Shown here: piece after piece, positions 4,750 through 35,163 of the stretch
Layout of the letters: each line of letters opens with the position of its first letter
Position numbering within the stretch: the stretch's first letter is position 1
Assembly: GCF_945980375.1 (NCBI RefSeq)
Contig: NZ_CAMFQO010000008.1
Span: 1 to 51,125 of the forward strand
DNA length: 51,125 bases
Direction of reading: 5' to 3'
Source of the DNA: an uncultured Eubacterium sp.
GTDB taxonomy: Bacteria; Bacillota; Clostridia; Oscillospirales; Acutalibacteraceae
Translations under genes and position numbers: made by a program
Notes under the pieces: generated by a model
What the model was told of the DNA's origin: nothing
The model's input: the letters and a program-made list of their open reading frames with translations, nothing else
The model's database searches: none

Positions 4750-5256
4750 ATGAAATACTATTTTAAATTGTTTATGCTTTTACCCGTAGGGCTTTTTACA
4801 GCGATTATAATTTACCCTTTTTTACACGAGTTAAGCCACTCAATGTGTGCAATTGCTTTTGGTGCAAATGTAGTGAATTTTTCATTATTTCCATTGCCGA
4901 GCGTTGTATGTAGTTTTGAAACAATGTCAAACGCCAGAATGTTTTTTATCGCAATTAGCGGAACCATAATTCCCCTTTTGCTATGTATAGCTGTAAGAAG
5001 CAAAATATTTTGGATTAACTATATAAAAATTCTAATCATTGTTATCAGCATTTTATCGTTTCTTATATCTATATTCGGCTTTATATTTGCACCTGAAATT
5101 TTGTTGAATCAGGATGACCTTGTAAGGTTTTCGGCATTAATAACAGGAGGAAATGTTGTATCTTTGGCTATCTGCATTATTGGTATATTTATATCGTTTC
5201 TTATATTACTTAAAACACTAAAGAAATGTGAGTTTTTTAGTTATTTTCAAAATTGA
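4750..5256 (+). CDS. Small integral membrane protein with HExxH motif (M50-like)
   Basis: 168 residues with four to five predicted membrane segments. The first is followed by FLHELSHSMCAIAFG, an HExxH zinc-protease motif at the membrane face as in M50/site-2-protease-like proteins. A second candidate metal ligand (an NPDG- or LDG-like motif) is not obvious, so activity is uncertain. The ribosome site GGGAGG lies upstream of the ATG. It sits alone between a terminator and the recombinase segment. If the neighbouring 1.4-kb segment inverted, the T7SS promoter would read antisense toward this gene. Confidence 0.55.
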   Translation: MKYYFKLFMLLPVGLFTAIIIYPFLHELSHSMCAIAFGANVVNFSLFPLPSVVCSFETMSNARMFFIAISGTIIPLLLCIAVRSKIFWINYIKILIIVISILSFLISIFGFIFAPEILLNQDDLVRFSALITGGNVVSLAICIIGIFISFLILLKTLKKCEFFSYFQN

Positions 5257-5324
5257 TTACTTTGCAAAGAAACACATTGCACACCAAAATCGCACAATTG
5301 TCATAATTTTAATTGACATATAAA

Positions 5325-5361
5325 ATAGGCTTGGTTTAGGAACAATCCTTTACCAAGCCTA
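5325..5361. other. Stem-loop between the M50-like gene and the left inverted repeat
   Basis: ATAGGCTTGGT pairs with ACCAAGCCTAT, with an inner AGGA-acaa-TCCT pairing. Nine bases separate it from a run of six T at 5371. It could terminate plus-strand transcripts. After inversion it would terminate transcripts leaving the flipped promoter, insulating the M50-like gene. Confidence 0.5.
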
Positions 5362-5370
5362 TGACTGTTG

Positions 5371-5395
5371 TTTTTTCGTAGAACTACAAGTTCAA
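5371..5395 (+). repeat. Left 25-bp inverted repeat of candidate invertible segment
   Basis: Perfect reverse complement of 6781-6805. The sequence includes CGTAGAACTACAAGTTCAA preceded by six T. The site has internal dyad symmetry: TTTTCGTAGAACT and AGTTCAACGAAAA around a central ACA, one mismatch. This is like a tyrosine-recombinase core site with two arms and a short asymmetric centre. Confidence 0.85.
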
Positions 5396-5438
5396 CGAAA
5401 AGTTCTTAAATTCAGCGTTAATAAGGCGTTTTCAAAAG

Positions 5439-5461
5439 ATTTTGACCATAAATTTGACCAT
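5439..5461 (+). repeat. Recombinase-flanking direct repeat, left
   Basis: ATTTTGACCATAAAT at 5439-5453 is identical to 6610-6624. A second TTTGACCAT occurs at 5453-5461. They lie just past the recombinase stop codon. By analogy with heterobivalent integrases they may be arm-type binding sites. Confidence 0.55.
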
Positions 5462-5463
5462 AA

Positions 5464-6576
5464 TCAACTGCATTTTTTCAAAGCAGTTTCAAGTTGTTTT
5501 CTTTTTACATCTAACGATGTATGAGTATAAGTGTTCAGGGTTGTGGTTTCTGAAGCATGACCGAGAATTTCACTTAATGTTTTTACATCCATTCCGTATT
5601 GCAGACACCTTGTTGCAAACGTGTGTCTGAGTGCGTGAAAATTTATTATAAGCAAATCGTTATCTATTAAGAAATTTTTAAAACGATATTCAAAGGTGCG
5701 AGTATCTATAAATGTAATTGTATTAGATACAACGAAGCCACTTTTATTTTCTATGCTATCTAATACAATTTTTAAACTTGAGGGTATTGGAACAACTCGT
5801 TTTGAAGCCTTTGTTTTAGGGGTTGTCAGAATAAGTTTTGTCTTATGTATACCATCGGTTGACGGAACTCTTGAAACCGTATGATTTACATAAAGCAAAC
5901 CGTTTTTCAAATCAATGTCTTTCCAATGCAAAGCACATATTTCTCCGATCCTCAGACCTGTATATAGAGCTATAATAGTTCCCAATGCAACATAAGAAGT
6001 TGATTTTTTTAAAACTTTTTCATATTTGCGTTGCTCATTTATCGTCAAAATTGTTATGTCCTTTTCGTCAAGATAGGGCTTATTAATCTCGCTCTTTAAA
6101 GGTAGGCAGTATCCCTCTTTCACAGCGAAGTCTAAAGCAGATTCTATTATTATCGCCATTGTTTTGACATATGATGGAGAAAGAGCTTTACCATCTTTTT
6201 TTGAACCTTGCTTCAATTTGGTTTCTAAGAAAGCATTCACAATGCAGGCATTTATTGATGAAATTTTTAAATATCCAAGTTCGGGCACGATATGAATGTT
6301 AATGATGTGTCGGTATTTCAATAATGTTGATTCCTTTATTCTGACCTTGTTATTGTCAAGCCAAATATTTAAAATACAACTGAAATTTAATGTCAAATTT
6401 ACAGTATTTGATAATTTACCTAACTTTGCATTTTCCAATTTCTCTTTACATTCACCATAAGTTTTTCCATAAACAGACTTGTATTTGGTTTTACCCATTT
6501 CATTAACTCCGGATTTGTAACGACCTTCCCATCTGCCATCCTTTCGTTTATGAATATTATCGCCTCGTCTTGACAT
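5464..6576 (-). CDS. Tyrosine recombinase (integrase family), candidate DNA invertase
   Basis: 370 residues, full length for the family. The N-terminal part (1-55, RKDGRWEGRYKSG..) resembles AP2-like arm-binding domains. Residues 60-160 form the SAM-like core-binding domain. The catalytic domain shows Arg209 (YTGLRIGE), Lys254, His314 and Arg317 (HALRHTFAT), His340 (ILGHAS) and nucleophile Tyr350 (LNTYTHTS), so it should be active. The ribosome site AAAGGAGG lies before the ATG. The gene is enclosed by perfect 25-bp inverted repeats (5371, 6781) and by direct repeats (5439, 6610). It reads away from the T7SS operon, whose promoter lies between its 5' end and the right inverted repeat. No excisionase gene is seen. 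It could instead be a relic integrase of a mobile element. Confidence 0.93.
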   Translation of the reverse strand: MSRRGDNIHKRKDGRWEGRYKSGVNEMGKTKYKSVYGKTYGECKEKLENAKLGKLSNTVNLTLNFSCILNIWLDNNKVRIKESTLLKYRHIINIHIVPELGYLKISSINACIVNAFLETKLKQGSKKDGKALSPSYVKTMAIIIESALDFAVKEGYCLPLKSEINKPYLDEKDITILTINEQRKYEKVLKKSTSYVALGTIIALYTGLRIGEICALHWKDIDLKNGLLYVNHTVSRVPSTDGIHKTKLILTTPKTKASKRVVPIPSSLKIVLDSIENKSGFVVSNTITFIDTRTFEYRFKNFLIDNDLLIINFHALRHTFATRCLQYGMDVKTLSEILGHASETTTLNTYTHTSLDVKRKQLETALKKCS

Positions 6577-6609
6577 TTAAATTCCTCCTTTAGAATAATT
6601 TTGACACTA

Positions 6610-6624
6610 ATTTTGACCATAAAT
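6610..6624 (+). repeat. Recombinase-flanking direct repeat, right
   Basis: ATTTTGACCATAAAT is identical to 5439-5453. A related TTTTGACACT lies just upstream of it. It sits between the recombinase ribosome site and the T7SS promoter, so binding there could also autoregulate the recombinase. Confidence 0.55.
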
Positions 6625-6710
6625 GTTTCAGGTAAAATACATTTTCAAAGCAATAATTTGGATATAAAGTAAAAAATATACAAAAACATCTTCTTTTTTG
6701 GCATTTTTTG

Positions 6711-6739
6711 TTGACAAACTATTAGTCAAATAATATAAT
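6711..6739 (+). promoter_or_regulatory. Consensus sigma-A promoter of the T7SS operon, inside the invertible segment
   Basis: TTGACA (6711-6716), a 17-bp spacer and TATAAT (6734-6739). It points to the XRE-essC operon and must transcribe through the right inverted repeat to reach it. The -35 box is part of a dyad TTGAC-N9-GTCAA, a possible operator for the XRE protein. Inversion of 5371-6805 would move it to the far side, facing away. Confidence 0.85.
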
Positions 6740-6780
6740 GTGATGTGTATAATTATCTTTTATATATATTTGTAATATTT

Positions 6781-6805
6781 TTGAACTTGTAGTTCTACGA
6801 AAAAA
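6781..6805 (-). repeat. Right 25-bp inverted repeat of candidate invertible segment
   Basis: Exact reverse complement of 5371-5395, located between the promoter -10 box (ends 6739) and the first gene of the operon. Outer flanks AATATTTTT (6774-6782) and AAAAATATT (6801-6809) add dyad symmetry. It lies in the 5' untranslated leader of the operon mRNA. Confidence 0.85.
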
Positions 6806-6834
6806 TATTCAGATAAAGAGAAGGAGGTATGGCT

Positions 6835-7164
6835 TTGAATGATTTATCAAAACAACAAGAAGATATGATAGAAACACTTACAAAAGCAATGCCTTACTTA
6901 CGAAAGGAACTTGGGGTGTCGCAGACTGTATTAGCTCAAAAAGTCGGAATGAGTCGACAAATGATTTCATTAATTGAACGTGGGAAACAACCAATGACTT
7001 GGACTCAATTTTTAGCCATTGTGTTTTTCTTCAAATCGAATAATGATTTTGAAAAAGGTGCTAAAGCAGTAGCTAAAAAGCAAGCGAACATTGTTGAACA
7101 ACTATTGCTTTTAAAAATAGATATGAATTTGTACAAAAAGGAGAAGTCAAGAAATGATAGTTAA
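6835..7164 (+). CDS. XRE-family transcriptional regulator, first gene of the T7SS operon
   Basis: About 109 residues with a helix-turn-helix (LRKELGVSQTVLAQKVGMSRQMISLIERGK). The strong ribosome site AAGGAGGT (6821-6828) touches an ATG at 6829, which is too close. The TTG at 6835, seven bases after the site, is therefore preferred; the ATG version adds two residues. The stop overlaps the essC start by 11 bases, implying coupled translation. It probably controls its own operon through the dyad at the -35 box. The Lys-rich C-terminus has no sensory domain. Confidence 0.85.
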   Translation: MNDLSKQQEDMIETLTKAMPYLRKELGVSQTVLAQKVGMSRQMISLIERGKQPMTWTQFLAIVFFFKSNNDFEKGAKAVAKKQANIVEQLLLLKIDMNLYKKEKSRNDS

Positions 7165-10100
7165 TTTAATAAAATCAAGGCAGATGTTTAGTCTTACATT
7201 GCCAAACAAAATTAAAGGTCAATATTGGCTTACAGATACAGACTCATTGGGAAATCCTCGTGAATTAATTAGCATTGAAGCTGTCGACGGTGAATGGGTT
7301 TTAAAGAGCAATAAAAAGGTTTCGGTTTTAAACTCTAATAATGAGCCAGTAAATAATACCGTTTTGCATCCTCAAGGATTCTTTAACTTGAAGATTGCTG
7401 GAGACAACGAAAGAGTCATCTTATTTGCCGAAAGTATAGATAATACACGCCATACTTTTAGAAAAGTTATGGTAAGGAAAAACGATGTTTTCAATATCGG
7501 AAGAACAAATGATAATAATTTTTGTTATGATAATAAGTTTGCTTCTGGTAAACATGCAAGAATTATCTATGATGGCAAAAACTGGTCTATTGCAGATTTG
7601 GGAAGTACAAACGGAACTTATGTAAATGGATACAGAGTAGAGTCAAGGAATTTGATTCCGGGCGATATTATCTACATAATGGGATTAAAAATCATTGTTG
7701 GTTGTAATTTCTTAGCTGTAAATAATCCGGATGGACTATTGAAAATCAATTCTCAAAGTTTATCAGAATATAAACCACAGCCCATAAAAGAAATTGTTGA
7801 ATCTTCTGAACTTCCTGAAAAAAACTATTTTTTCCGTTCACCACGATTTCATAGAGAGATTGAACATGCTGAAATAAAAATAGATCCACCACCACAACTT
7901 CAAAAGCTTGACACAGTACCTCTTGCATTAATGTTGGGACCATCATTAACTATGGGCTTGACTTCGTTGAGTACCGGTTTACTTGCGGTGAGCAATGTTA
8001 TATCAAATGGTGGAGAAATAACTCAGGCTTTGCCAACGCTAATGATGTCGGTAAGTATGCTTTTAGGCACAGTACTGTGGCCAATACTTACAAAAAAACA
8101 CGAGAAAAAAACTCGAATAATTAGCGAGAAAAAAAGACAGGAAAAATATCTTGCATACTTAGATAGTGTTAGGGATGAAATAAAAAGAAAGTCAAAAGAA
8201 CAAAGTGATATACTTCAAGAAAATCTTATAACATTAGAAGAATGTGCGGATAGAATAGCTGAAGAAAAATCAAATCTTTGGGAAAGAGCTATTGGACATT
8301 CAGATTTCTTAAAATTGAGGTTGGGATTAGGAAATCTGCCACTTGATGCAGATGTTAAGTTCCCTGAAAAGAAATTCACAATGGAAGACGATAACTTGCA
8401 GGATGCGATGTTCTCATTGGGAGCTGAACCTAAAGAACTTGTGAATGTTCCTGTAAGCGTTTCTTTAGTTGACAATATGACTGTTGGAATATTCGGAGAG
8501 TATGTTCAAACGGTAAATATGATAAAATCTCTCATTCTTCAAATGATTTCGTTACACAGTTATGATGAACTTAAAATTATTTTGATGTGTGATGAAAATG
8601 ATAAAGACGAATGGAGATTTGCAAGATTTATACCGCATTTTTGGGATAATGATAAAACAATACGTTTTATGGCAACAAATGCTGATGAGGTAAAGGAAAT
8701 ATCCGCTTACATAGAGAAGAATATACTTTCTCGTGGAGATGTATCAAATCAGGATTACACAGAGCTGCTTCCGTATTATGTTGTAATATCAACAAGTAAA
8801 ACCCTTAGCGAGAAATGTGAATCATTACAGCAACTTCTTAAGTATAAGAACAACAGAGCTTTCAGTATTTTGTTGTCTGCACCAGAACTAAAGGACTTGC
8901 CAAAAGAAACAAAGACGGTAATATTCGCAAATGCCGACAAGTCCAAAATGTTCGATAGAGAAGATACCACTGGTAAGAATATTGCATTTGTTGCAGACAA
9001 AGTTAATGATGCTTCCATCAATAATTTAGGACAAGATATAGCTAATATAGAACTTGATTTAAGCACCCAAAGATATTCATTGCCATCAATGATTACGTTT
9101 TTGGAAATGTTTAATGTTGGTAAAATCGAACATCTAAATTCTCTAACAAGATGGAAGGAAAATAATCCAACTATAACATTACAAACACCGATAGGCGTTG
9201 ATTCTTATGGTGGTTCATTTAATTTAGATTTACACGAGAAATTTCATGGTCCTCACGGCTTGGTAGCAGGTATGACTGGATCGGGTAAGTCAGAATTTAT
9301 TATTACATACATTCTTTCCCTTGCAGTAAATTACCATCCTGATGAAGTAGCATTTATTTTAATAGACTATAAAGGTGGTGGTTTAACTGGTGCATTTGAA
9401 GATGAGGATAGAGGAATAAAACTTCCTCACCTTGCTGGTACGATTACAAACTTAGATGGTGCGGCAGTTAAGCGTTCATTGATTTCTATTCAAAGTGAAC
9501 TTCGAAGAAGACAGGCTATTTTCAATGAAGCGAGAAAAGTTTCAAATGAAGGAACTATGGACATTTATAAATATCAACAACTTTACAGAGATAAGGTTGT
9601 AAGTGAGCCTGTCCCTCATTTATTCATAATTTCAGACGAATTTGCTGAATTAAAGACACAACAGCCTGAATTTATGGAGCAGCTTATCAGTGCTGCCAGA
9701 ATAGGTCGTAGTTTAGGTGTTCACTTAATTCTTGCAACACAGAAACCAAGTGGTGTTGTTGATGATCAAATTTGGAGTAATAGTAAGTTCAGAGTATGTC
9801 TTAAAGTTCAAGAAAAAGCAGATAGCCAAGATATGATTAAGTGTCCGGATGCTGCTGAATTATCGCAAACTGGTAGATTTTATCTTCAGGTTGGATTTAA
9901 TGAGTTATTTGCATTAGGTCAATCAGCTTGGTGTGGTGCAGAATATATTCCGACTGATACGGTGGAAAAATCAGTTGATAATAGCATTCAAGTTGTAGAT
10001 AATCTCGGCAGAACGATGATGAAGCTGAAGCCGAGCAAAAAGAAGGTAATAAGCGGAAGTAAAGTTAAACAAATCGTTTCAATAGTAAAATACTTATCTG

Positions 10101-11737
10101 ATCTTGCAACTGAAGAAAAAATTAAAGTTAGACCACTGTGGCTTGATCCGATACCGGAACTTATCTATGTAGAAGACCTTGAAAACAAGTATTCAATAGT
10201 AGATAAAGGCGCTACTCTTAATCCTGTTGTAGGAGAGTATGACGATCCATTCAATCAAAAACAAGGTGTTCTTACGGTTCCATTCTCATCAGAAGGAAAC
10301 TGCTTGGTTTATGGTGCTACGGGCAATGGCAAAACAACATTCTTAACAACTCTTTGCTATTCTCTTATCAAAAATCACAATGCAGAAGAATTGAATATTT
10401 ACATTATGGATTTCGGTTCGGAAACTTTGAAAGTGTTTGATAAGGCTCCACAAGTTGGTGGTGTAGTAGTTTCATCAGACGAAGAAAAAACTATTAATTT
10501 CTTGAAGATGCTACATCAGGAAATCGAAAAGAGAAGAAATTTATTCTCTGAGTATGGTGGAGATTATGCAAGCTACATCAAGAATAGTGGTAAAACAATT
10601 CCAAATATAGTTGTTTTATTGAACAATTATTCGGGATTTGCTGAGCAATTTGAGGACTTACAGGAAGAATTTACATTGCTTTCCAGAGATGGTGTAAAAT
10701 ACGGTATTTATTTTGCTGTTACAGCAGGAAACACTAATGCAGTTCGCTACAAAACTCAGCAAAACTTTAAGATGATGTTGACTATGCAACTTAATGATGC
10801 AACTGATTATTCTTTGATTGTTGGAAAAACAGAAGGATTAATACCATCAAAATTTAAAGGCAGAGGTTTGGTTTCTCTTGATAGAGTTTATGAGTTCCAA
10901 ACCGCATACTGTAAAGATGTTGATGATATCCAGGATTATTTACGTACATATTGCTTTGAGCTTAGAGAAAAAGCTGAGATATTTGCTAAACCTATTCCGG
11001 TTCTCCCGAATACAGTAGATGTTGATTATGTTGCATCAACTATAGATGGACTCAATAATATTCCTCTTGGTGTAAACAAAAAATCACTTAATATTATTTC
11101 GGCAAACATTGCAAACAAGGTTGTATATCCAATAGTGGCACAAGAAGTTTACGAAGCAACTAACTTCACAGAAGAACTCATTAAAGTTCTTTCAATTGCA
11201 ACAAATACATATTTGATTGACTCGGAGCAGTTGTTTAATGATGAAACATTTGGTGCAAAAGCTGTTGCGGGAAACTACGAAACATTCGTTCAAGACTTGT
11301 TTGCTGAAATGGTAGAGCGAAACAACACCTTTAAGGATGCAAAAATGGATCCGGCATCATTGGATAACTACGATGAGAGAGTCTATGTTTTTGCAGGATT
11401 TAAGAGATTTTGTGAGCAATTAACTGATGATGGCAAGGAAAAGCTCGGATTGTTAATTGAAAAAGCAGAAAGCTTTTATAAGTTGCACTTTGTTATCGTT
11501 GAGTCAGCAACTCAATATAGTGGCTATTCCTACGATGCTTGGTATAAGCGTCATATTACCGGAGCTGATGGAGTATGGATTGGTGATGGCGTTGCAGACC
11601 AATATATGTTGAAAATCAATAAGATCACAAGTGAACTTTACGAAGAAGTTGGCAATGAATATGGCTATGTAATCACAAGAAACAAGCCATCTTTAGTTAA
11701 ACTTCTCTCACCAAAATTAGACGAGGAGGTTGAATAA
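7154..11737 (+). CDS. essC: EssC/YukB-type FtsK/SpoIIIE ATPase with FHA domain, T7SS motor
   Basis: 1527 residues. The N-terminal domain (1-100) is followed by an FHA domain (about 107-187) with GRT (116-118), SGKHA and GSTNGTYVNG, the phosphothreonine-binding signature. Two membrane helices lie at about 257-283 and 292-312. The first ATPase domain has an intact P-loop (GMTGSGKS, near 706) and Walker B/DEF motif (FIISDEFAEL, near 822). The second has GATGNGKTT (near 1055) but VVLLNNYSG where Walker B is expected. The third (from about 1280) has no P-loop, as in other EssC proteins. It powers export of WXG100 substrates across the cytoplasmic membrane. The start at 7154 has AAGGAG nine bases upstream. 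The intact FHA suggests gating by the downstream Ser/Thr kinase. Confidence 0.95.
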   Translation: MIVNLIKSRQMFSLTLPNKIKGQYWLTDTDSLGNPRELISIEAVDGEWVLKSNKKVSVLNSNNEPVNNTVLHPQGFFNLKIAGDNERVILFAESIDNTRHTFRKVMVRKNDVFNIGRTNDNNFCYDNKFASGKHARIIYDGKNWSIADLGSTNGTYVNGYRVESRNLIPGDIIYIMGLKIIVGCNFLAVNNPDGLLKINSQSLSEYKPQPIKEIVESSELPEKNYFFRSPRFHREIEHAEIKIDPPPQLQKLDTVPLALMLGPSLTMGLTSLSTGLLAVSNVISNGGEITQALPTLMMSVSMLLGTVLWPILTKKHEKKTRIISEKKRQEKYLAYLDSVRDEIKRKSKEQSDILQENLITLEECADRIAEEKSNLWERAIGHSDFLKLRLGLGNLPLDADVKFPEKKFTMEDDNLQDAMFSLGAEPKELVNVPVSVSLVDNMTVGIFGEYVQTVNMIKSLILQMISLHSYDELKIILMCDENDKDEWRFARFIPHFWDNDKTIRFMATNADEVKEISAYIEKNILSRGDVSNQDYTELLPYYVVISTSKTLSEKCESLQQLLKYKNNRAFSILLSAPELKDLPKETKTVIFANADKSKMFDREDTTGKNIAFVADKVNDASINNLGQDIANIELDLSTQRYSLPSMITFLEMFNVGKIEHLNSLTRWKENNPTITLQTPIGVDSYGGSFNLDLHEKFHGPHGLVAGMTGSGKSEFIITYILSLAVNYHPDEVAFILIDYKGGGLTGAFEDEDRGIKLPHLAGTITNLDGAAVKRSLISIQSELRRRQAIFNEARKVSNEGTMDIYKYQQLYRDKVVSEPVPHLFIISDEFAELKTQQPEFMEQLISAARIGRSLGVHLILATQKPSGVVDDQIWSNSKFRVCLKVQEKADSQDMIKCPDAAELSQTGRFYLQVGFNELFALGQSAWCGAEYIPTDTVEKSVDNSIQVVDNLGRTMMKLKPSKKKVISGSKVKQIVSIVKYLSDLATEEKIKVRPLWLDPIPELIYVEDLENKYSIVDKGATLNPVVGEYDDPFNQKQGVLTVPFSSEGNCLVYGATGNGKTTFLTTLCYSLIKNHNAEELNIYIMDFGSETLKVFDKAPQVGGVVVSSDEEKTINFLKMLHQEIEKRRNLFSEYGGDYASYIKNSGKTIPNIVVLLNNYSGFAEQFEDLQEEFTLLSRDGVKYGIYFAVTAGNTNAVRYKTQQNFKMMLTMQLNDATDYSLIVGKTEGLIPSKFKGRGLVSLDRVYEFQTAYCKDVDDIQDYLRTYCFELREKAEIFAKPIPVLPNTVDVDYVASTIDGLNNIPLGVNKKSLNIISANIANKVVYPIVAQEVYEATNFTEELIKVLSIATNTYLIDSEQLFNDETFGAKAVAGNYETFVQDLFAEMVERNNTFKDAKMDPASLDNYDERVYVFAGFKRFCEQLTDDGKEKLGLLIEKAESFYKLHFVIVESATQYSGYSYDAWYKRHITGADGVWIGDGVADQYMLKINKITSELYEEVGNEYGYVITRNKPSLVKLLSPKLDEEVE

Positions 11738-11738
11738 T

Positions 11739-11990
11739 ATGGAAAAGGTATTAGTTGAAATATTTGTACCTGTTATAAATCAATCGTTTGATGTATTTAT
11801 TCCGTTACAATCTCCAATGTATGAAGTTTTGGAACTTATTAAAAAGGCTATATCTGAAATGTCAGATGGTCGTTTTATAGCAAATGAAAATACAACAATT
11901 TGCCATCGAGAAGATGGAACAATCATCAATATTAATTTATCGGTTTATGAACTGGAAATTCGCAATGGTTCGAAACTGATGTTAATATAA
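11739..11990 (+). CDS. esaB: YukD/EsaB-like ubiquitin-fold protein of the T7SS
   Basis: 83 residues from the ATG at 11739, which has GAGGAGG ten bases upstream; an upstream in-frame TTG at 11730 lies inside that site. The sequence (VEIFVPVINQSFDVFIP..  ..LEIRNGSKLMLI) has the beta-grasp pattern of YukD, ending in a hydrophobic strand. YukD/EsaB is a small cytosolic component or regulator that is nearly always next to EssC and WXG100 genes, as here. Confidence 0.85.
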   Translation: MEKVLVEIFVPVINQSFDVFIPLQSPMYEVLELIKKAISEMSDGRFIANENTTICHREDGTIININLSVYELEIRNGSKLMLI

Positions 11991-12012
11991 ATATTTTAAG
12001 GAGGTCATTATT

Positions 12013-12315
12013 ATGGCAAGAACAATTCAGGTTACACCTGAGCAGTTGGAGTCCGCAGCAGGAAGAATTGAAGGTTTAGCTGCAGATTACAAGACACAGT
12101 ATGATGCACTTTATTCCGAAACTAATGCTATGGCTTCAACATGGAACGGAAAGGACAATACCGCATTTGTTGATCAGATTGCAGGCTTCAAAGATGACTT
12201 CGAGAAGATGCATACTCTGATGCTCAACTATGCAGATTTCCTTAGAAAAAGCGCAAAAGCTTATCGTGACACTCAGGATACAGTAGTTTCTGAGGCAAGA
12301 AAACTTGTAAATTAA
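12013..12315 (+). CDS. WXG100 protein (EsxA-like)
   Basis: 100 residues forming a helical hairpin with the turn motif W44-N-G46. This is the standard length for an exported WXG100 substrate/co-secretion partner of the EssC pathway. The ribosome site AAGGAGGT is strong. The C-terminal export motif YxxxD/E is not exact (AYRDTQDTVV). It is followed 13 bases later by a second WXG100 gene, an EsxA/EsxB-like pair likely to form a heterodimer in which the partner carries the export signal. Confidence 0.93.
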   Translation: MARTIQVTPEQLESAAGRIEGLAADYKTQYDALYSETNAMASTWNGKDNTAFVDQIAGFKDDFEKMHTLMLNYADFLRKSAKAYRDTQDTVVSEARKLVN

Positions 12316-12328
12316 GGAGGTTACAACA

Positions 12329-12628
12329 ATGGCAGATTCAATTCAAATTTCCACCCAAGTGTTAATGGATACAGCGACAAAGGTTCGTAATATTAACACA
12401 CAGTTAGATCAGAAGCTTGCAGATATAAATAAAAATATGAATGATTTGGAAGCAACTTGGAAGAGTGACGCAGCAACAGATATTAGAGCCGCAATGAACG
12501 CTCTCAAACCTCGTTTTGAAGAGTATAAAAGTGTAGTAGAATCATATGCAAAGTTTCTTGATCATACTGCTCAAAGTTATGAATCAACTGAAACTGGCGT
12601 TCAAGCTAATGCAAGTGCATTTAAGTAA
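12329..12628 (+). CDS. WXG100 protein with WKS turn (EsxB-like partner)
   Basis: 99 residues with the same helical-hairpin layout. The turn is W44-K-S46 rather than W-x-G. The C-terminal part has Y84-E-S-T-E88, which matches the YxxxD/E export signal. It directly follows the first WXG100 gene with its own AAGGAGGT site and is followed by a strong stem-loop that may stabilise this short, probably abundant, transcript. Confidence 0.92.
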   Translation: MADSIQISTQVLMDTATKVRNINTQLDQKLADINKNMNDLEATWKSDAATDIRAAMNALKPRFEEYKSVVESYAKFLDHTAQSYESTETGVQANASAFK

Positions 12629-12638
12629 TTGACACATT

Positions 12639-12664
12639 GCAAGTGGGTGCTTGCACCCACTTGC
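12639..12664 (+). other. RNA stem-loop after the WXG100 pair
   Basis: GCAAGTGGGTGC and GCACCCACTTGC form a twelve-base inverted repeat separated by TT; the real loop would be a few bases larger. No T-run follows, so it is more likely a processing or stability hairpin, or an attenuator, than a full terminator. Confidence 0.7.
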
Positions 12665-12750
12665 CCTAAAATTGAAAATAACAAGAATTTATTCTTTTGA
12701 TATAGAAATAAATTTACTCAGTGCTTGACTTTGTTTTGGAGGTTAAATAA

Positions 12751-15162
12751 ATGAATAAAATAAAAAAGATTGTTTGTATAATTTTATCAGTGATAATGAT
12801 TACACAACTTTTGGCTGGTTGTACTGTAAAAAAAACAGATGATGAAATTTATTTGACTAAGGGTGAGTTTTTTTCATATTACGTGTATGAAAATAGAATG
12901 ACCTCAATGAATTATAATGCAACTGATATAGAAAATTGCAAGGATGGTTCTGTTGAAGCAAGCATAATAGCGGAATGGGGTTATTTAACTGAAGAGCAAG
13001 CACTTAAAGGTCTAAAATCAGCGGTAACTAAAGAGATTGTAGTTATGGTTTGTGCAAATGCGACTTATGGTTTAGTTGAAGGTAATGTAAATGATATTAA
13101 AGATGCCGATTTGCTTGATGACCCACAAATTATAGCAAATGCGTATGCTAGCGGTTTCTTTGATTTGAATAATGGATATTTTGACGGTGCGAAAAAAATG
13201 TCTCTTTCAGACTGTGAAGAAATAATGGAAAAAGCTAATGCATATACTTCTAATTTCCATTTTGAAACAAACACTGAAAAAACAACTGTTGCTGAAGATG
13301 TATACGTTCAAGATGACTCTGATTATACAGAAGGTGACATTGTAATTTCATTTAACGAAAGTGATTATGCTGAATCTCCCATAGCTTATTCAAGCACAGA
13401 TAAACTTGAAGTAACACCATTAAATTATTTAGGATATGATGAAAACATCATTGATCTTAATCATAATTCATCAGATGCTAACCTAATTCAAACTGCGAAC
13501 GGTAAAGATGATTTTGCAAATATAAGCAATGTTCAAAGTTTTATGGCTACGATTAATAAAAATACTTACGAAAAATCACTAGGTAAACCTAAAGTTGGGG
13601 ACAAAGTTGTTTTAAAAAGAGCAGATCTGCTCTTGACAAATGATAATTTTTTTAGAAACAATCCATTAGGAACAATAATCGGTGAATTACTTGCTTCATC
13701 AATGAATGGAAATACTTATGTGTGTCAATTTGCTGTATTAGAGTTTGAACCAGCTGTTGAGGCGGTTAATGTAGATGAAGCAAACAGAAACGGTATCGAT
13801 ACAACAACTTTTGTAGCTCTTGAAACGAATGTAGATGGTTGGGAGTTAAAATTTAATGTAACAAGTGCTGACATAAGTGTTAGTGCAAAAAAAGCATTTA
13901 CACATAAAGAGACAGGAAGAAAACAAGATTGGCAAAACGCTAAGCAAACAGTTAATGCATCTGTAGATTTTAAAATAGGTGACTTTAATGTTGATGCATG
14001 TAACTTGAAAAGTTTTGCAACAAAAAAAGGTACAGGGTTTGTAAAAATGACTTGTGATTCAAGTATGGGATTTTCCTTGGATCAAAGTTTAAGATATACG
14101 CCAGATAGCAATAGAAATGGTAAATTCCCTTCAAATTGGAACACTTCTCGTTGGACAGATTCCGATTCTAAAGGTGCAAAAGAAATAAAAATCGCTCGAT
14201 TTTGTCCAACTGTTTATGGAATTGTAGGTGCAAATATATATATTTATATACGCATTTCTGTAGATGGTAAGATTTCTTTTACATCATCGGTTGATAACGG
14301 TGGAGTGCAAATCACAACAAATAATGGTAATATTTCAACAAGAAATCTTGGTACAAAAGAAGAAGAGTTAAAACTTAATGTTAATTTGCACGGAAGACTT
14401 GGCGTTGACGCAAGTATAAATATTTTTACTTTTATAAATGTAATTAGATATGATGTAGGTCTCGACGCTAATTTAAATGCATTAACAAATTTATATTATG
14501 AGGATAGTCTTAAGCAAAAAGGTCTTTATGCTGATGCTGAAGGTTTGGATGATTATTCTAAAAATGATAGTAAATTTAATTATTGTATAGGAATATGTTT
14601 AGACATTGGCTTATCGGGAAAACTTTTAGATTCCGGTGTTAAATTAATATTGGATTGGATTAGTAAAGGTTCGAACTTAGATTTTTCTGTTGATCTTTGG
14701 AGTTGTGGATTCCATTTTGAAGATGGTAATTTTGTGGATAAATGTACTCGAGGGGATGATATTGATGCATCTGTTGAAAAATCTGAAGATGAAAGTATTT
14801 GTTTAGAAACATATAAAGTAATACTTGATGATGGTGCAAGTGCAACAATAAATATTACAGAATTGCCATCAAAATCATTTAATTTGGTAAAATCTAAAAA
14901 GTCTGTAACAGTTAGCAGTAAAAACAATAAAGTATGTAATGTACAATATAATAAAAATGAGGGAAAAATCATAGTTGAAGCATTAAGTCCTGGAAGTACG
15001 GAAATTACTATAAAAGCCAAAAAAGGCATATTATTCTGGAAGGAAACCTATGAGCAGGAACTTTCTGTGACAGTTAATGATAGTTATGTACAAGATTTTG
15101 TTTGTTTTACTCCTAATGATAATTATGTACTAATAAAAAATTTGCCTGTTTTGAGTATATGA
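12751..15162 (+). CDS. Large lipoprotein of the T7SS locus, function unknown
   Basis: 803 residues starting with a lipoprotein signal peptide, lipobox LLAGC with Cys24, so anchored on the outer face of the membrane. The middle (about 350-670) is beta-rich with many Asn/Asp and alternating hydrophobics. Residues about 690-775 look like a Big_2-type Ig domain (SSKNNKVCNVQYNK..ALSPGSTEITIKAKKG). No enzyme motif is recognised. The ribosome site GGAGG is good. It lies between the WXG100 pair and a WXG-like gene with short spacing, so it is probably co-expressed and may be an outer component of the secretion machine or a surface-displayed factor. It is not any classical Ess subunit I recognise. Confidence 0.75.
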   Translation: MNKIKKIVCIILSVIMITQLLAGCTVKKTDDEIYLTKGEFFSYYVYENRMTSMNYNATDIENCKDGSVEASIIAEWGYLTEEQALKGLKSAVTKEIVVMVCANATYGLVEGNVNDIKDADLLDDPQIIANAYASGFFDLNNGYFDGAKKMSLSDCEEIMEKANAYTSNFHFETNTEKTTVAEDVYVQDDSDYTEGDIVISFNESDYAESPIAYSSTDKLEVTPLNYLGYDENIIDLNHNSSDANLIQTANGKDDFANISNVQSFMATINKNTYEKSLGKPKVGDKVVLKRADLLLTNDNFFRNNPLGTIIGELLASSMNGNTYVCQFAVLEFEPAVEAVNVDEANRNGIDTTTFVALETNVDGWELKFNVTSADISVSAKKAFTHKETGRKQDWQNAKQTVNASVDFKIGDFNVDACNLKSFATKKGTGFVKMTCDSSMGFSLDQSLRYTPDSNRNGKFPSNWNTSRWTDSDSKGAKEIKIARFCPTVYGIVGANIYIYIRISVDGKISFTSSVDNGGVQITTNNGNISTRNLGTKEEELKLNVNLHGRLGVDASINIFTFINVIRYDVGLDANLNALTNLYYEDSLKQKGLYADAEGLDDYSKNDSKFNYCIGICLDIGLSGKLLDSGVKLILDWISKGSNLDFSVDLWSCGFHFEDGNFVDKCTRGDDIDASVEKSEDESICLETYKVILDDGASATINITELPSKSFNLVKSKKSVTVSSKNNKVCNVQYNKNEGKIIVEALSPGSTEITIKAKKGILFWKETYEQELSVTVNDSYVQDFVCFTPNDNYVLIKNLPVLSI

Positions 15163-15177
15163 AATAGGAGGTTATTT

Positions 15178-15690
15178 ATGATTAATATTAATACTGCAAA
15201 CGCACAAGCAGGACAACTATCTTCTTATGCAAGCCAACTTAGAAATGCGAAAAATCAACTTACCAATTATAAATCCTCACTTTCAAATAATTGGAAAAGC
15301 CAAGAAGTTGCCTATATAACTCGTGCTATAGATCAAGTAATTGCTCAAATAGACAATGCAATGAAACAACTTAACAGTATAAGTACGGATGTTAAAAGTA
15401 CAGCAGCTACCATCAAAAGAGAGGATGATGCTGCCGCTGCTGCTGCAAGAGCCGCAAGAGCAAAACAACAAAGAATTCAGACAGCACAAACAAATTATAA
15501 TCGTGCAGTTAATGAATGTGATGCTCTTTACAAGCAGCGTGACGAGCTTCAAAAGACATTGAGTAAAAGTATGTCTGCAAGTAAAAGGGCTAACTATATG
15601 AAGCAATGGGACGAGCTTATGAAAAAAATACAGGCAGCGGAGAAAAATCGTACTAATTGCTATAATGCATTAGTTGCTGCGAGAAGGTAA
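15178..15690 (+). CDS. WXG-like helical protein with coiled-coil extension
   Basis: 170 residues. The N-terminal 80 have the WXG100 layout with W39-K-S41 at the turn, as in the WKS protein at 12329. They are followed by an Ala/Arg linker (AAAAAARAARAKQQR) and a second coiled coil ending in AARR. Only 15 bases separate it from the lipoprotein gene, and AGGAGG precedes the ATG. It is likely a T7SS substrate or chaperone-like adaptor for the operon. Part of the C-terminal helix resembles the helical partners of LXG proteins, but this is inference. Confidence 0.75.
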   Translation: MININTANAQAGQLSSYASQLRNAKNQLTNYKSSLSNNWKSQEVAYITRAIDQVIAQIDNAMKQLNSISTDVKSTAATIKREDDAAAAAARAARAKQQRIQTAQTNYNRAVNECDALYKQRDELQKTLSKSMSASKRANYMKQWDELMKKIQAAEKNRTNCYNALVAARR

Positions 15691-15699
15691 AGCGAATTT

Positions 15700-16878
15700 A
15701 TGAATAAAATCAAAATTGCTAAAAAAATGGGCGTTAACCATTTAATGATTAAAAGTTTAAAAGGGCAACAGTTAAACGAACATGAAATTTACTCAATTAA
15801 CAATAACGAGGTAAAAGGACTTCTTCGTGTTGAGGTTTTTCAGAAAAACAATTCTTTCAAATTGTTTTATAATGTGTCGGGCTTTACTACTTTTAGACAG
15901 TATTTAAGAACGCCATTAACTAAAGAAACATTTGCAAATACGTTGCAAAACATACTTGATTGTTTGCTTGCAGTGAAAAAAGCATTCTTTCATCAGGAAA
16001 ATATGTTAATGGATTTTAATCATGTTTTAGTTAATCCTGCAACACAAAAAATATATTTTGTATATGTTCCAATTCAGGGATTTGAAAGCGAGGTGTCATT
16101 AAGAGACTTTTTGCTTAACATAATACAGTATTGTTCTTTTGCACCGGGAGAAGATACAAGCTATGTAAAAGACTATATAACAATTCTTAATAGCGGTATC
16201 AATTTCTCCGAATTCGACTTAGAGGAATATATTAAAGGTCTATTTGGAAGAAATAATTCTGAAAAGAGTTATAAAGAATGCCCTAATTGCCATACAAAAC
16301 TACCTAAAGGAACAAGCTATTGTACTCAATGTGGCACAAAAGTATCGGGCAATACTGGTACAATGGGAGGAAAAAAAGGAACATATAATCCGTTTGACGA
16401 ACCTGAAGAAGAGATACCGCCGATAGATGATAAGGAAAAAGAAAAGGAAGAAGTTATCACACCTCCAAAAGACAGTACGCAAGGACTAAGTGATGGTACA
16501 ACCGTTTTAGGAGAGGACTCGGGTGGAACAACTGTTTTAGGCTCAGAAGAACTTGATAAGCCTAATTTCCCATACCTTATACGAGAAAAGAACGACGAAA
16601 AAATTATGGTTGACAAGCCGTCATTTAGGATAGGTAAAGAGAAAAAGTATTGCGATTATTTTGTTTTTGATAATAATGCTGTAAGCAGAAGTCATGCGGA
16701 TATTATTACAAAAGAACATAGATATTATATTATTGATTTAAATTCAACAAATAAGACTTATGTTGATGGCAGAGCTATAGCAGTAGAAAAAGAAGTTGAA
16801 ATATTTAACGGAACAAAGCTTCGCTTAGCTAATGAAGATTTTGTCTTTTACATAGATGAAGAAAAGGTTGGTGAGTAA
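15700..16878 (+). CDS. DUF6382-like / zinc-ribbon / FHA protein
   Basis: 392 residues. The N-terminal domain (about 1-185) resembles DUF6382, found with FHA domains in Firmicutes. Its pattern (LLAVKKAFFHQENMLMDFNHVLVN) recalls the pseudokinase fold of EssB/YukC, so it might replace EssB; this is inference. A zinc ribbon follows (CPNC..CTQC, about 194-213), then an acidic linker with two TTVLG motifs (267-271 and 276-280), then a C-terminal FHA domain (about 300-390). That FHA has GKEKKYCDYF, SRSHAD and STNKTYVDG, where the usual Gly of STNGT is Lys. The TTVL threonines are candidates for phosphorylation by the kinase encoded downstream. The gene abuts the phosphatase gene without a gap. Confidence 0.82.
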   Translation: MNKIKIAKKMGVNHLMIKSLKGQQLNEHEIYSINNNEVKGLLRVEVFQKNNSFKLFYNVSGFTTFRQYLRTPLTKETFANTLQNILDCLLAVKKAFFHQENMLMDFNHVLVNPATQKIYFVYVPIQGFESEVSLRDFLLNIIQYCSFAPGEDTSYVKDYITILNSGINFSEFDLEEYIKGLFGRNNSEKSYKECPNCHTKLPKGTSYCTQCGTKVSGNTGTMGGKKGTYNPFDEPEEEIPPIDDKEKEKEEVITPPKDSTQGLSDGTTVLGEDSGGTTVLGSEELDKPNFPYLIREKNDEKIMVDKPSFRIGKEKKYCDYFVFDNNAVSRSHADIITKEHRYYIIDLNSTNKTYVDGRAIAVEKEVEIFNGTKLRLANEDFVFYIDEEKVGE

Positions 16879-17655
16879 ATGTCATTTTGTGTGGAAATGC
16901 ATACCGATATTGGTATTAGAAAAGAAACTAATCAAGATAGTATTTGTGTTAAAGAAGCACAAACAGATAGAGGTGATATTTTACTTGCTATTATTTGTGA
17001 CGGAATGGGCGGTCTTGAAAAAGGTGAAGTTGCAAGTTCAACTATAATTTCAGCCTTTTCAAAATGGTTTGAAGGAACTTTACCATATCTGCTCGCAAAA
17101 GATAACGTAATAGATGAAGTGAAATATTATTGGGAACGTCTTATAAAAGAACAAAATCAGAATATTGCTGAATATGGCAGGAAAAATCATATTCAGTTAG
17201 GCTCAACGATAACAGTGATTTTGTTTCTCTATGACGGAACTTACTTAATTGGTCATGTTGGAGACTCAAGAGCATACAAGATAATCAACAATGATATTGA
17301 AATATTGACAGAGGATCAAACGCTTGTTGCGAGAGAAGTAAAGATGGGTAGGTTAGCACCTGACAAAGTGGAAAGTGATCCAAGAAGAAATGTTTTGCTA
17401 CAATGTATCGGAGCTTCAAAAATTGTTGAGCCTGCTTTCTATAAAGGTATATATAATAGTGAAGAATGCTATATGCTTTGTTCTGACGGATTTAGACATG
17501 TTATTTCGACAGATGAAATTAGAAAAGCCTTTGCACCTTCAAATAATAATAATGAAAAAGAAATAAAGGATAATATTGTTCGTCTAATAGAACTTAATAA
17601 AGAAAGACAAGAAACCGACAATATTTCCTCAATTTTAATAAGGATTATAAAATAG
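16879..17655 (+). CDS. PP2C-family protein Ser/Thr phosphatase
   Basis: 258 residues, a complete PPM/PP2C domain. Metal-binding motifs are present: GIRKETNQDS near residue 12, CDGMGG near 39, GSTITVILF, HVGDSRAY, EDQTL, CSDGF and a final DNIS. It removes phosphate from Ser/Thr residues added by the cognate kinase, which is encoded 11 bases downstream; the pair is arranged as in PrpC-PrkC operons. Its start codon follows the previous stop directly. Substrates here probably include the T-x-V-L proteins and FHA ligands of the secretion locus. Confidence 0.93.
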   Translation: MSFCVEMHTDIGIRKETNQDSICVKEAQTDRGDILLAIICDGMGGLEKGEVASSTIISAFSKWFEGTLPYLLAKDNVIDEVKYYWERLIKEQNQNIAEYGRKNHIQLGSTITVILFLYDGTYLIGHVGDSRAYKIINNDIEILTEDQTLVAREVKMGRLAPDKVESDPRRNVLLQCIGASKIVEPAFYKGIYNSEECYMLCSDGFRHVISTDEIRKAFAPSNNNNEKEIKDNIVRLIELNKERQETDNISSILIRIIK

Positions 17656-17666
17656 GAGGTTGAATT

Positions 17667-19346
17667 GTGGCTTTTATCGGACAAGTAATTGATGATAAAT
17701 ATGAAATACTTACCTTAGTCGGTCAAGGTGGTATGTCAAAGGTTTATCTTGCGAGAGATAAGCGCCTTAACAAGCAATGGGCTGTTAAAGAAATTGAAAA
17801 ACGTGCAAAAGATAGGAATAACGAAATAGTTATTCAAAGTGCTATAGCTGAAGCAAACCTGATTAAACAGCTTGATCACCCTGCTATTGTTCGTATTGTT
17901 GATATTATAGATAATGGTAATGTTATTTATATTATTGAAGATTACATAGAAGGTCAAACATTAAGCGAAATTCTTGAAAACAATGGTGCTCAACCGCAGG
18001 AACTTGTAATTGAATGGGCAATGCAAATATGCGAAGCTTTGGAGTATTTGCATACGAGAAAACCAGCGATTATATATCGTGATATGAAGCCTGCAAATGT
18101 TATGTTAAAACCGGATGGTTCTATAAAGGTAATTGACTTTGGTATTGCTCGTGAGTACAAGGATCAAAGTTTAGCGGATACTGTAAGCTTGGGAACAAAG
18201 GGTTACGCTGCACCGGAACAATTTGGCGGCAAAGGACAAACGGACGCAAGAACTGATATTTACTGTCTTGGTGTTACTCTTTATCATTTGCTTACAGGTC
18301 AAAATCCGTGCGAGCCACCTTACGAAATTTATCCTATTAGGCATTGGAATCCACAATTGTCAGCAGGACTTGAGGCTGTAATACAAAAATGCACGCAATT
18401 AAATCCTGATGATAGATACCAATCTTGTGCTGAACTACTATATGCTTTACATCATTATGAAGAATACGGTGCGGCATATAGAAAAATGCAAAAGACTAAA
18501 CTCAAAAGGTTTATTATTACAGTTGCCATAATGGTTGTTTGTTTATTAGTTGGTGTATTTGGATTAACAATGAGAACTGTTACAAATAATGCTGACTATA
18601 ATCAAAACATATCATTAGCCGAAAAAGCTTCTACTTCGGAGGAAAAGGTTTCTTATTATTCGAAAGCAGTTGATATAAAACCAACATCCATTGAAGCTTA
18701 TGAAGGAATGATTGAAGCCTTTAAGGATGATGCTGCTTTTTCAACAGACGAAGAAGAAGTATTAAAGAAAAAACTTGAAGCTAATTTAACACAACTTAAA
18801 GAACAAGATAGTTATTCTGATTTGGCATTTGAGATTGGAAAATTATACTGGTATTACTATGATTATGGAAAAACCGAAACTGCCGATAATCAAATAACAA
18901 GAATGAAAAGCTCAATTCAATGGTTTGAAGATGCAGCTACGAATGAAACATCACCAAATTATTTAATGGCTTCAATTTATAAGGAAATTGGTAAGTTTAA
19001 CAGAGATATTACATTGCAGATTGAAGAAGCTGACGACAAAGGTAAGTATGCTCCTTACTGGGAAAATTTAGAGGAATTAACACATCAAATCGCTTCATCA
19101 AACAATGAAAGTGAAATTATTGAGCTTGAAATTTATAAGTTAGCAATGTATTCAATGGAAAACTATGCAAGAAAATTCAAAGCAGATAATATTACGGAGC
19201 AGCAAATGAATTCTTTATTTAATACAGTAAAACAAGAAGTTACAGATGTATCAACATCTACAGATAAAACTGCCGGCTTGAAGAATGATGTAATTGCCCG
19301 TTTTGATTCAACAGAAAAAGCAATAGAGAATGCATATAGAGAGTAG
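17667..19346 (+). CDS. Membrane Ser/Thr protein kinase with extracellular helical-repeat domain
   Basis: 559 residues, GTG start with AGGAGG eight bases upstream. Kinase domain at 1-265: GQGGMSKVY glycine loop, Lys41, catalytic loop YRDMKPAN with Asp139 (Tyr replaces the usual His), and DFG at 157. The activation segment holds GTKGYAAPEQ. A transmembrane helix follows at about 281-302. The outer part (about 305-559) consists of TPR-like helical repeats and not the PASTA repeats of PrkC, so the signal is different, perhaps a protein of the secretion machine. It probably phosphorylates the T-x-V-L array encoded next, feeding the FHA domains of EssC and the 15700 protein. Confidence 0.93.
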   Translation: MAFIGQVIDDKYEILTLVGQGGMSKVYLARDKRLNKQWAVKEIEKRAKDRNNEIVIQSAIAEANLIKQLDHPAIVRIVDIIDNGNVIYIIEDYIEGQTLSEILENNGAQPQELVIEWAMQICEALEYLHTRKPAIIYRDMKPANVMLKPDGSIKVIDFGIAREYKDQSLADTVSLGTKGYAAPEQFGGKGQTDARTDIYCLGVTLYHLLTGQNPCEPPYEIYPIRHWNPQLSAGLEAVIQKCTQLNPDDRYQSCAELLYALHHYEEYGAAYRKMQKTKLKRFIITVAIMVVCLLVGVFGLTMRTVTNNADYNQNISLAEKASTSEEKVSYYSKAVDIKPTSIEAYEGMIEAFKDDAAFSTDEEEVLKKKLEANLTQLKEQDSYSDLAFEIGKLYWYYYDYGKTETADNQITRMKSSIQWFEDAATNETSPNYLMASIYKEIGKFNRDITLQIEEADDKGKYAPYWENLEELTHQIASSNNESEIIELEIYKLAMYSMENYARKFKADNITEQQMNSLFNTVKQEVTDVSTSTDKTAGLKNDVIARFDSTEKAIENAYRE

Positions 19347-19357
19347 GTGAAAGTTTA

Positions 19358-20044
19358 ATGAGTGCAACAACATGGTTAATTATAGCAATTATTGGATTTT
19401 CACTTGCCGGAATTGCTTTGGTAGTCGCTATATTTATGTTTATAAATCAGAACATACCTTCTGTAATAGGTGATCTAACAGGCAAAACAGTTGCTCGTGA
19501 AATCAAAGCAATGAGAGAATTCAATAAAGCACATGGAGATAGAAGGTTTAGACCAAGTGAGGTAAATCTTGAAAGAGGTACATTAACTGAAAAAGTTGAA
19601 GTATCAAGAGAAGATCAGCAAGCTATGGCAGAGGCACATTTATCGAAACGCCTTGACAAAACTCCTTCTGAGGACATTTCTGTTAAAAAGAAAACTAAGG
19701 GTGGAACTATTGGTCTTAATGATTTTGAATCCACAGCAACAGATGTATTAAACGAAGGAAGTAACCCCACAGAAGTTCTTAGCGATAATGCTACAGAAGT
19801 GCTTTCGTCAAATGAAACAGAGGTTTTGAGCGATACCACAAACGCAACTGAGGTACTTAGTTCGAACGAAACAGAGGTATTGAGTAATAATGCTACAGAA
19901 GTTCTTAGCGACAGTACAACAGTATTATCAGAGGGAACAACTGTATTAAGTGAAAATGTGGAAGTTTCTGAAAATTTGGCAACTCCTATAAGCTTTAAGG
20001 TTACAAAGGATAAGACAATCACTCATTCTGATGAGGTGATTTAA
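19358..20044 (+). CDS. Single-pass membrane protein with T-x-V-L repeat array
   Basis: 228 residues. An N-terminal membrane helix (about 5-31, WLIIAIIGFSLAGIALVVAIF) is followed by a charged cytoplasmic region. Residues 128-197 then hold nine T-[DET]-V-L motifs spaced 7-13 residues apart, mostly as N-A/E-T-E-V-L-S. The same TTVL motif occurs twice in the FHA protein at 15700 and once at the end of the fusion at 29394 (CTVLL). Such threonines with Leu or Ile at +3 suit FHA recognition, so this looks like a multivalent phospho-scaffold for the kinase encoded 11 bases upstream. No family is recognised. Confidence 0.75.
   Translation: MSATTWLIIAIIGFSLAGIALVVAIFMFINQNIPSVIGDLTGKTVAREIKAMREFNKAHGDRRFRPSEVNLERGTLTEKVEVSREDQQAMAEAHLSKRLDKTPSEDISVKKKTKGGTIGLNDFESTATDVLNEGSNPTEVLSDNATEVLSSNETEVLSDTTNATEVLSSNETEVLSNNATEVLSDSTTVLSEGTTVLSENVEVSENLATPISFKVTKDKTITHSDEVI
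19739..19948 (+). repeat. Coding tandem-like repeat: nine T-x-V-L motifs
   Basis: Repeat units of roughly 18-30 bases encode [AEPST]-T-[DET]-V-L-[SN]. Synonymous codons vary between copies (acagaagttctt, acagaggttttg, actgaggtactt), so the amino-acid motif rather than the DNA repeat seems to be conserved. Confidence 0.8.
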
Positions 20045-20529
20045 TGATGCAACTCATACAAAAAAGCAAACAATACTTGATATTAACAATAATCTTTTCT
20101 TTCATATCAAGCATTGCCATTGTCCCAAGTATGTTTATTGTAGGAAATGAAAAATCTTATCTAATGATTAAAATCGTGTTTCCCTTAATATTTTGGCTTG
20201 GTTTAGTTGCTGAACAATATTTCTTTTGGGAATCAAACAAAATAAGAAAAGAAATATTGAACAAAGGAAATTATCGTAAATTGAATGCAAAAATAGGACT
20301 CATCTCGTTTTTGCAAAACAAGTATGGAGCTATTGCTGATTTGATTTTCTTTGTTTCATTGATAATTTTATCATTGTTAATGATTGTTAAAGTTGGAGAA
20401 AAGTCAGTTCAATACATATTTATTTTTCTTTTGGTTTTATCGTTTAGGCTTCACACTATTCTAAACGGAAAAAACTTTAGATATATAAATTATTTTGTAA
20501 AAAGGAAGGTAAAACAAGATGTTGAGTAA
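20044..20529 (+). CDS. Polytopic membrane protein of unknown function
   Basis: 161 residues with four hydrophobic segments (about 10-32, 38-58, 95-116, 122-140) and basic loops. No recognised motif. It overlaps the upstream gene by one base (TAATG) and the giant surface-protein gene by 11 bases, so translation of the three is coupled. The position between the T-x-V-L scaffold and the surface protein suggests a membrane component of the secretion or display machinery, possibly standing in for a missing Ess subunit; that is inference. Confidence 0.65.
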   Translation: MMQLIQKSKQYLILTIIFSFISSIAIVPSMFIVGNEKSYLMIKIVFPLIFWLGLVAEQYFFWESNKIRKEILNKGNYRKLNAKIGLISFLQNKYGAIADLIFFVSLIILSLLMIVKVGEKSVQYIFIFLLVLSFRLHTILNGKNFRYINYFVKRKVKQDVE

Positions 20530-33230: not shown

Positions 33231-33251
33231 AAATAAGGAGTGTATTTTGCT

Positions 33252-33530: not shown

Positions 33531-33531
33531 T

Positions 33532-35124: not shown

Positions 35125-35163
35125 GAAGAACGCTTAATCGGTAACAAAAATAGCAATAATTAA

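Follow-up and report, generated by a model that had tools for sequence, protein, structure and literature searches.

Type VII secretion systems (T7SS) are known above all for their contact-dependent toxins and their interaction with hosts. Invertible promoters (invertons) of gut bacteria were reportedly described by Jiang et al. in 2019, and the Hin segment of Salmonella encloses its own recombinase, Hin being a serine recombinase. An excerpt of a study of gut-bacterial invertons links a Clostridia inverton group to a tyrosine recombinase group (PMC11892184). In excerpts of another source (PMC5903667), Hin (Salmonella) is named as an invertible segment, an invertible fimbrial segment of 844 bp in Providencia stuartii is stated to enclose its own recombinase, and RecV of C. 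difficile is presented as a tyrosine recombinase that acts in phase variation at several dispersed genomic sites. Phase variants of M. tuberculosis ESX-1 are attributed, in an excerpt of a further source, to indels within a homopolymer run upstream of espR (PMC11898584). Invertible promoters are thus already known, and the new part would be a T7SS under such control; the preliminary description of the locus knew of none, and we found none in the open-licence literature, which is no proof of absence.

Here, we analyzed a window of 51,125 nucleotides, i.e., a 51-kb contig of a genome assembly of 1.77 Mb in 53 contigs. We consider it probable (roughly 0.8) that this window holds a self-contained invertible promoter cassette, whose own recombinase flips a 1.4-kb segment and thereby turns a T7SS operon ON or OFF.

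Results

Anatomy of the cassette

Two inverted repeats of 25 nt, at positions 5371-5395 (left) and 6781-6805 (right), are 100% complementary, lie 1385 nt apart, and bound a short segment, as in an inverton. By chance, perfect inverted repeats reached at most 16 nt (in 4 of 300 Markov sequences, each of 3701 nt), and the second-longest perfect inverted pair in the whole window, with arms 200-6000 nt apart, is 15 nt. No further copy of the 25-bp repeat with up to 3 mismatches occurs in the window (0 in 100 shuffles), and a third copy of the 21-nt site is absent from the genome assembly. The repeat forms the dyad CGTAGAA-CTACAAG-TTCAACG, with an asymmetric core of 7 nt that reads CTACAAG in the left repeat. 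The asymmetric central triplet, ACA, noted in the preliminary description is present, and proves to be the middle of this longer core.

Within the segment lie an intact recombinase gene and a promoter on the plus strand at 6711-6739 (-35 TTGACA at 6711-6716, a spacer of 17 nt, and -10 TATAAT at 6734-6739), which is divergent from the recombinase gene and is the sole 12/12 match on both strands from 5200 to 20600. The right repeat sits after the promoter and before the first operon gene, which starts 23 nt beyond it; judged by consensus, the promoter inside the segment is directed across this repeat to the operon (ON). On all of these points, namely perfect repeats around recombinase and promoter, a consensus promoter aimed at the XRE-essC operon, and a right repeat placed between that promoter and the first T7SS gene, our analysis agrees with the preliminary description. 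Further promoters internal to the operon are possible. Outside the left repeat, at 5325-5362 on the minus strand, there is a strong hairpin with 17-nt arms (88% complementary), which folds in a separate folding analysis and was not listed by the terminator scan. This hairpin probably stops leftward transcripts, i.e., that of the recombinase in the ON state and that of the flipped promoter in the other.

The tyrosine recombinase

The gene at 5464-6576 (minus strand) encodes a probable invertase of 370 aa with Phage_integrase and SAM-like domains (Pfam). Its catalytic set is complete (R209, K254, H314, R317, H340, and Y350), and these R, K, H, R, H, and Y residues are kept in 50/50 homologous recombinases, the window's included; by its catalytic residues, the protein may be classed as a tyrosine recombinase. 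The solved structures nearest to it by sequence are those of an Int protein (6emy, 6emz, and 6en0; E 2.4e-33), which we take to be the Tn1549 integrase. A structure model built from three sequences (mean pLDDT 60.7, pTM 0.47) was too poor for a fold search; it places strands at 10-12, 15-24, and 30-36 and a helix at 40-51 of the N terminus, where the pLDDT is 33-60. Such a beta-beta-beta-alpha start, a lead only, has the topology of arm-binding domains. An AP2 match was obtained for 1 of 21 family members (E 0.031).

A phage origin of the recombinase was considered and rejected, since a close-relative search found none of its relatives in viral_contigs and the stretch 5200-7200 had no match to phage records. 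The preliminary description had also raised the integration of a larger element as a possible role of the enzyme; it does not look like such an integrase at the 46 of 50 homologous loci where close repeats confine its gene.

The T7SS operon behind the cassette

The operon, on the plus strand throughout, begins with an XRE-type HTH regulator (6829-7164), assigned by domain match, whose homologue in G529 is 75% identical and occupies the same place. It is followed by EssC, the type VIIb secretion ATPase (7154-11737; TIGR03928 score of 1042.8 bits against a cut-off of 778.4), a YukD-like protein (11730-11990; E 8.1e-5 and 23.7 bits, under the Pfam cut-off of 27), and two WXG100 proteins over the Pfam cut-off (12013-12628). 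An EssC over its family cut-off, together with WXG100 and YukD proteins, corresponds to a type VIIb system. By their domains, the products of the remainder of the block (12751-26731) comprise a weak Big_2 protein, an FHA/DUF6382 protein, a PP2C phosphatase, a kinase, and a 2070-aa Ig-like protein; we infer that the block to 26731 forms one transcript. No Pfam match at 0.001 to EssB, EssA, or EsaA was found among the block ORFs scanned, which lie outside 33240-33530, and distant forms are possible.

Near the T7SS, positions 29394-33230 encode a 1278-aa fusion of PARG-like, GDSL lipase, FHA, SseB, and kinase domains, and a Radical SAM/SPASM protein (33412-34536) stands at the end of the block. 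A DarT-like ADP-ribosyltransferase and NADAR-DarT1 antitoxin pair (35407-37055) has its own 12/12 promoter (35194-35222), with a terminator-like hairpin upstream (35162-35185).

Related cassettes in other genomes

Homologous recombinases were sought in genome draws that overlap, and the window's own genome was counted wherever drawn. They were found in 10 of 98 relatives (E 1e-60), 30 of 394 genomes of the order (1e-70), 9 of 300 genomes of the family (1e-78), 2 of 63 genomes of the family of G385 (1e-85), and, with the G424 recombinase as query, 3 of 197 genomes of its family (1e-90); a draw from the phylum gave 2 of 398 genomes (1e-80), both within the order. A scan of named genomes yielded six relatives with 28-38% identity. 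All distinct places, including the window but without locus L035 of G003, where a contig end cuts the recombinase, amount to 50 loci; these are not independent, as L132, L133, and L134 are near-identical and L109/L110 and L116/L117 are close kin.

Perfect inverted repeats of at least 14 bp lie close on both sides of the recombinase gene at 46 of the 50 loci, delimiting segments of 1324-1623 bp, and at 0 of 142 control ORFs (0.9-1.4 kb) of the same loci; L031 and L114 have no such repeats, and L128 and L130 have repeats of only 12 bp. The cassette before the T7SS operon is a real, conserved invertible-promoter cassette, and its anatomy recurs across genera. When the first 170 nt inward from the repeat on the 5' side of the recombinase were scanned in the 46 segments with repeats, an outward promoter of at least 11/12 was found in 31 (12/12 in 18), versus 1/46 on the opposite strand, 0/46 at the other segment end, and 7/920 in shuffles. 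The promoter side is always the recombinase 5' end.

An EssC over the cut-off is encoded in the same block behind the cassette in the window, G529, G008, G055, G054, G385, and G424, and is 75% (G529) and 61% (G008) identical to that of the window. The cassette is hence not unique, there being seven EssC-linked cassettes and further kin at pilus-type and FHA-kinase operons; absence of the repeats next to homologous T7SS loci, which the preliminary description had named as a refuting outcome, is not what we see, as they recur at T7SS operons in six further genomes. The genus of the window has 16 EssC places in 15 of 80 genomes, and the cassette is present at 4 of the 16; for the other 12, no homologous recombinase was seen in the stretch examined, which did not always reach the operon start. 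At six of the seven EssC-linked loci, the first ORF has its most upstream start 5-38 nt after the repeat (120 nt in the seventh, G385), leaving little space for another promoter; the true starts may be somewhat further in. Outside the far repeat, the other EssC-linked loci have hairpins of variable strength. A hairpin with a T-rich tail follows the recombinase, inside the segment, in G529, G008, G055, and G054; no clear terminator-like hairpin was found from recombinase to repeat in the window, G385, or G424, so that in the window an OFF-state recombinase transcript could leak into the operon.

Other operons stand behind related cassettes. G170 was rejected as an EssC-linked locus, its EssC-like protein scoring 86.6-89 bits against the cut-off of 778.4. 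Likewise, G457 and G722, candidates on account of FHA/PP2C/kinase homologues, were rejected as T7SS loci because in neither genome did an EssC exceed the TIGR03928 cut-off, and they serve as inversion evidence only. At L101 (11397-19999) and L126 (1-9928), in genomes without EssC over the cut-off, an FHA/PP2C/kinase/large-protein operon resembles the regulatory half of the T7SS block, and its first protein at L101 is a trypsin-like protease with an FHA domain. T2SSE ATPase operons, which by layout are probably Tad-type pili, lie behind the cassette at six loci (L104, L106, L107, L111, L113, and L142); a seventh, L031, has the same operon without repeats of at least 12 bp. In three genomes of two families, L132, L133, and L134 carry one and the same cassette, down to an identical recombinase, within a ~20-kb block that is nearly identical and is probably a mobile element. 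In the window's genus, a sub-clade (L036, L037, L038, L039, and L041) has different repeats (TATCCACATAAATGAA type), several of them beside very large ORFs.

The window recombinase falls in a clade of 18 (support 100/98), within which operon types are mixed. On the tree, the operon-type labels require 5 changes (shuffled mean 5.5), and the T7SS and pilus labels are unclustered (236 and 263 of 500 shuffles as low); thus, we make no claim of one clade per target.

Crossover cores and TGGTCA elements

In the clade of 18, every repeat holds a site like CGTAGAA-7 nt-TTCTACG, with 21-28 of the 28 arm letters matching when both copies are counted. The 7-nt core is asymmetric in 18/18 and the same in both copies in 18/18, the latter count being favored by the choice of repeats as exact matches; between loci, 0 of 153 pairs of cores are identical, with a mean of 4.3/7 differences. 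As tyrosine recombinases require matching cores, equality within loci fits strand exchange in the core.

The spacers between recombinase and repeats hold TGGTCA elements, often paired 11-13 nt apart, at 22/46 loci in the 5' spacer and 15/46 in the 3' spacer. The 51 elements share the strand of the recombinase gene without exception, and their densities are 3.0 and 7.1 per kb, versus 0.2-0.5 in control stretches. In the window, two lie 12 nt apart at 5443-5460 and one lies upstream of the recombinase gene at 6614-6619, all on the minus strand. As a lead from the motif, the elements may serve an integrase-like enzyme as arm-type sites, or act as an operator.

Orientation of the cassette between species

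Orientations were compared between species, with one genome per species. The promoter points toward the operon (ON) in the window, G529, G055, and G054, and away from it (OFF) in G008, G385, and G424; G529, likewise ON, is the closest locus to the window. Two species pairs carry the cassette reversed relative to a conserved flank. More specifically, in G008/G054 the plus-orientation alignment of the far-side flank (3686 columns, 76.1% identity) ends at L028:10193, where the left repeat has its last base, and the cassette itself aligns in the minus orientation (1400 columns, 76.8%); in G457/G722 it is the operon that aligns in the plus orientation (8860 columns, 71.9%), from L101:11287 next to the right repeat onward, with the cassette again in minus (1372 columns, 72.5%). 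The breakpoints are at or near the repeats in both pairs, and cassette and flank are equally diverged, which speaks for inheritance in place. Both orientations hence occur at homologous loci of related species, in two pairs with one conserved flank each, the other flank not being conserved. G201/G211 (L116 and L137) display the same inverted pattern, less sharply, at another kind of locus.

When two or more collinear neighbor genes are required, there are 52 locus pairs, 16 of them inverted and 36 in the same orientation; pairs conserved on both flanks are in the same orientation in 10 of 10 cases, three of which are near-identical copies. The seven pilus-type loci are without exception OFF, a pattern unlike that of free switching unless the OFF state is favored. 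Four ON and three OFF among seven EssC-linked loci, together with the two reversed pairs, support the invertible-promoter reading of the preliminary description. Inversion of the cassette over evolutionary time is well supported by these alignments, whereas rapid switching inside one species is an inference.

Discussion

Since related bacteria carry these cassettes in both orientations, the secretion machine is probably switched by DNA inversion, an interpretation that is well supported, not proven. The recombinase in the segment would bind both inverted CGTAGAA-N7-TTC sites and catalyze strand exchange in the identical, asymmetric 7-nt core, so that the 1.4-kb segment would flip within a strain. 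In the ON state, the orientation in the assembly, the promoter would fire across the right repeat and drive XRE-essC with the rest of the T7SS operon; in the OFF state it would face the hairpin that lies outside the left repeat, and the operon, left without a nearby promoter, would not be expressed. The recombinase gene retains its own upstream region in both states; thus, the switch could flip back.

The main rival, which we regard as unlikely, holds that the repeats are the ends of a small mobile element, that the opposite orientations go back to separate insertion or replacement events, and that the promoter drives the operon incidentally. Such an element would suit the occurrence of related cassettes before different kinds of operon with unclustered labels (5 changes versus 5.5), the presence of one cassette in a near-identical block of three genomes (L132-L134), and the conservation of only one flank in each inverted pair. 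However, cassette and flank have diverged about equally (76.8 versus 76.1% and 72.5 versus 71.9%), as vertical inheritance predicts; the cores match within and differ between loci, which is required by inversion but not by transposition; and the promoter is invariably at the recombinase 5' end.

A switch that has lost its ability to flip, with the promoter fixed ON in the window's species, would account for the ON state of the closest locus and for pairs with both flanks conserved never differing in orientation, but the recombinase is intact with all catalytic residues, and the repeats stay a perfect 25-bp match even though the letters immediately outside them differ; we deem this very unlikely. 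Scarcely credible is an operator or attenuator role, in which the repeats and hairpins would serve transcription and the recombinase would lie next to them with no part in their action: the dyad symmetry of the repeats and their place in the 5' leader of the operon would agree with it, but 46 of 50 loci have a second repeat copy beyond the recombinase gene, and in related species the reversal of the cassette occurs at the repeats.

If the switch by promoter inversion is true, an entire T7SS would be made by part of a population only and inherited as a DNA state, which could account for T7SS loci that are silent in culture, and PCR would separate ON from OFF cells. Tentatively, and at somewhat less than even odds, the cassettes may form a lineage of portable, self-flipping promoters, with an integrase-like recombinase and arm-type sites of its own (TGGTCA), set by one bacterial order before whole secretion and pilus machines (T7SS, Tad-type pili, and FHA-kinase modules), each with a private 7-nt core, for orthogonal bet-hedging of surface and secretion machinery. 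Private cores would keep several switches in one genome from cross-recombining, and the series of recombinase/site pairs would be a model for how a tyrosine recombinase separates switches. As a search handle, a recombinase-bearing segment of 1.3-1.6 kb with CGTAGAA-N7-TTC ends can be used.

Among known systems, the Tn1549 integrase, represented by the nearest solved relatives of the window recombinase by sequence, is the mover of a conjugative element; in contrast, no larger element is visible at the repeats of the window. The geometry, likened at first to fimS, is indeed that of an invertible promoter, but is less fimS-like than Hin-like, as the enzyme sits inside the segment. Hin, like the cassette, lies in its segment, whereas the window enzyme is an integrase-like tyrosine recombinase and is found at a T7SS. 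In gut-bacterial invertons, too, a promoter ahead of an operon is flanked by inverted repeats; the excerpt names no T7SS, and two example coordinates of its inverton group 139 span ~255-257 bp with a recombinase near, in contrast to the 1.4-kb segment around the recombinase in the window (PMC11892184). The M. tuberculosis ESX-1 variants, as excerpted, similarly represent phase variation touching type VII secretion, but by homopolymer indels rather than DNA inversion (PMC11898584). The P. stuartii segment, according to its excerpt, encloses a recombinase as the window's does, but is shorter and lies beside a fimbrial locus (PMC5903667). Finally, RecV, as excerpted there, shares with the window a tyrosine recombinase and phase variation in Clostridia, whereas in the family described here each segment has its own recombinase and its own core.
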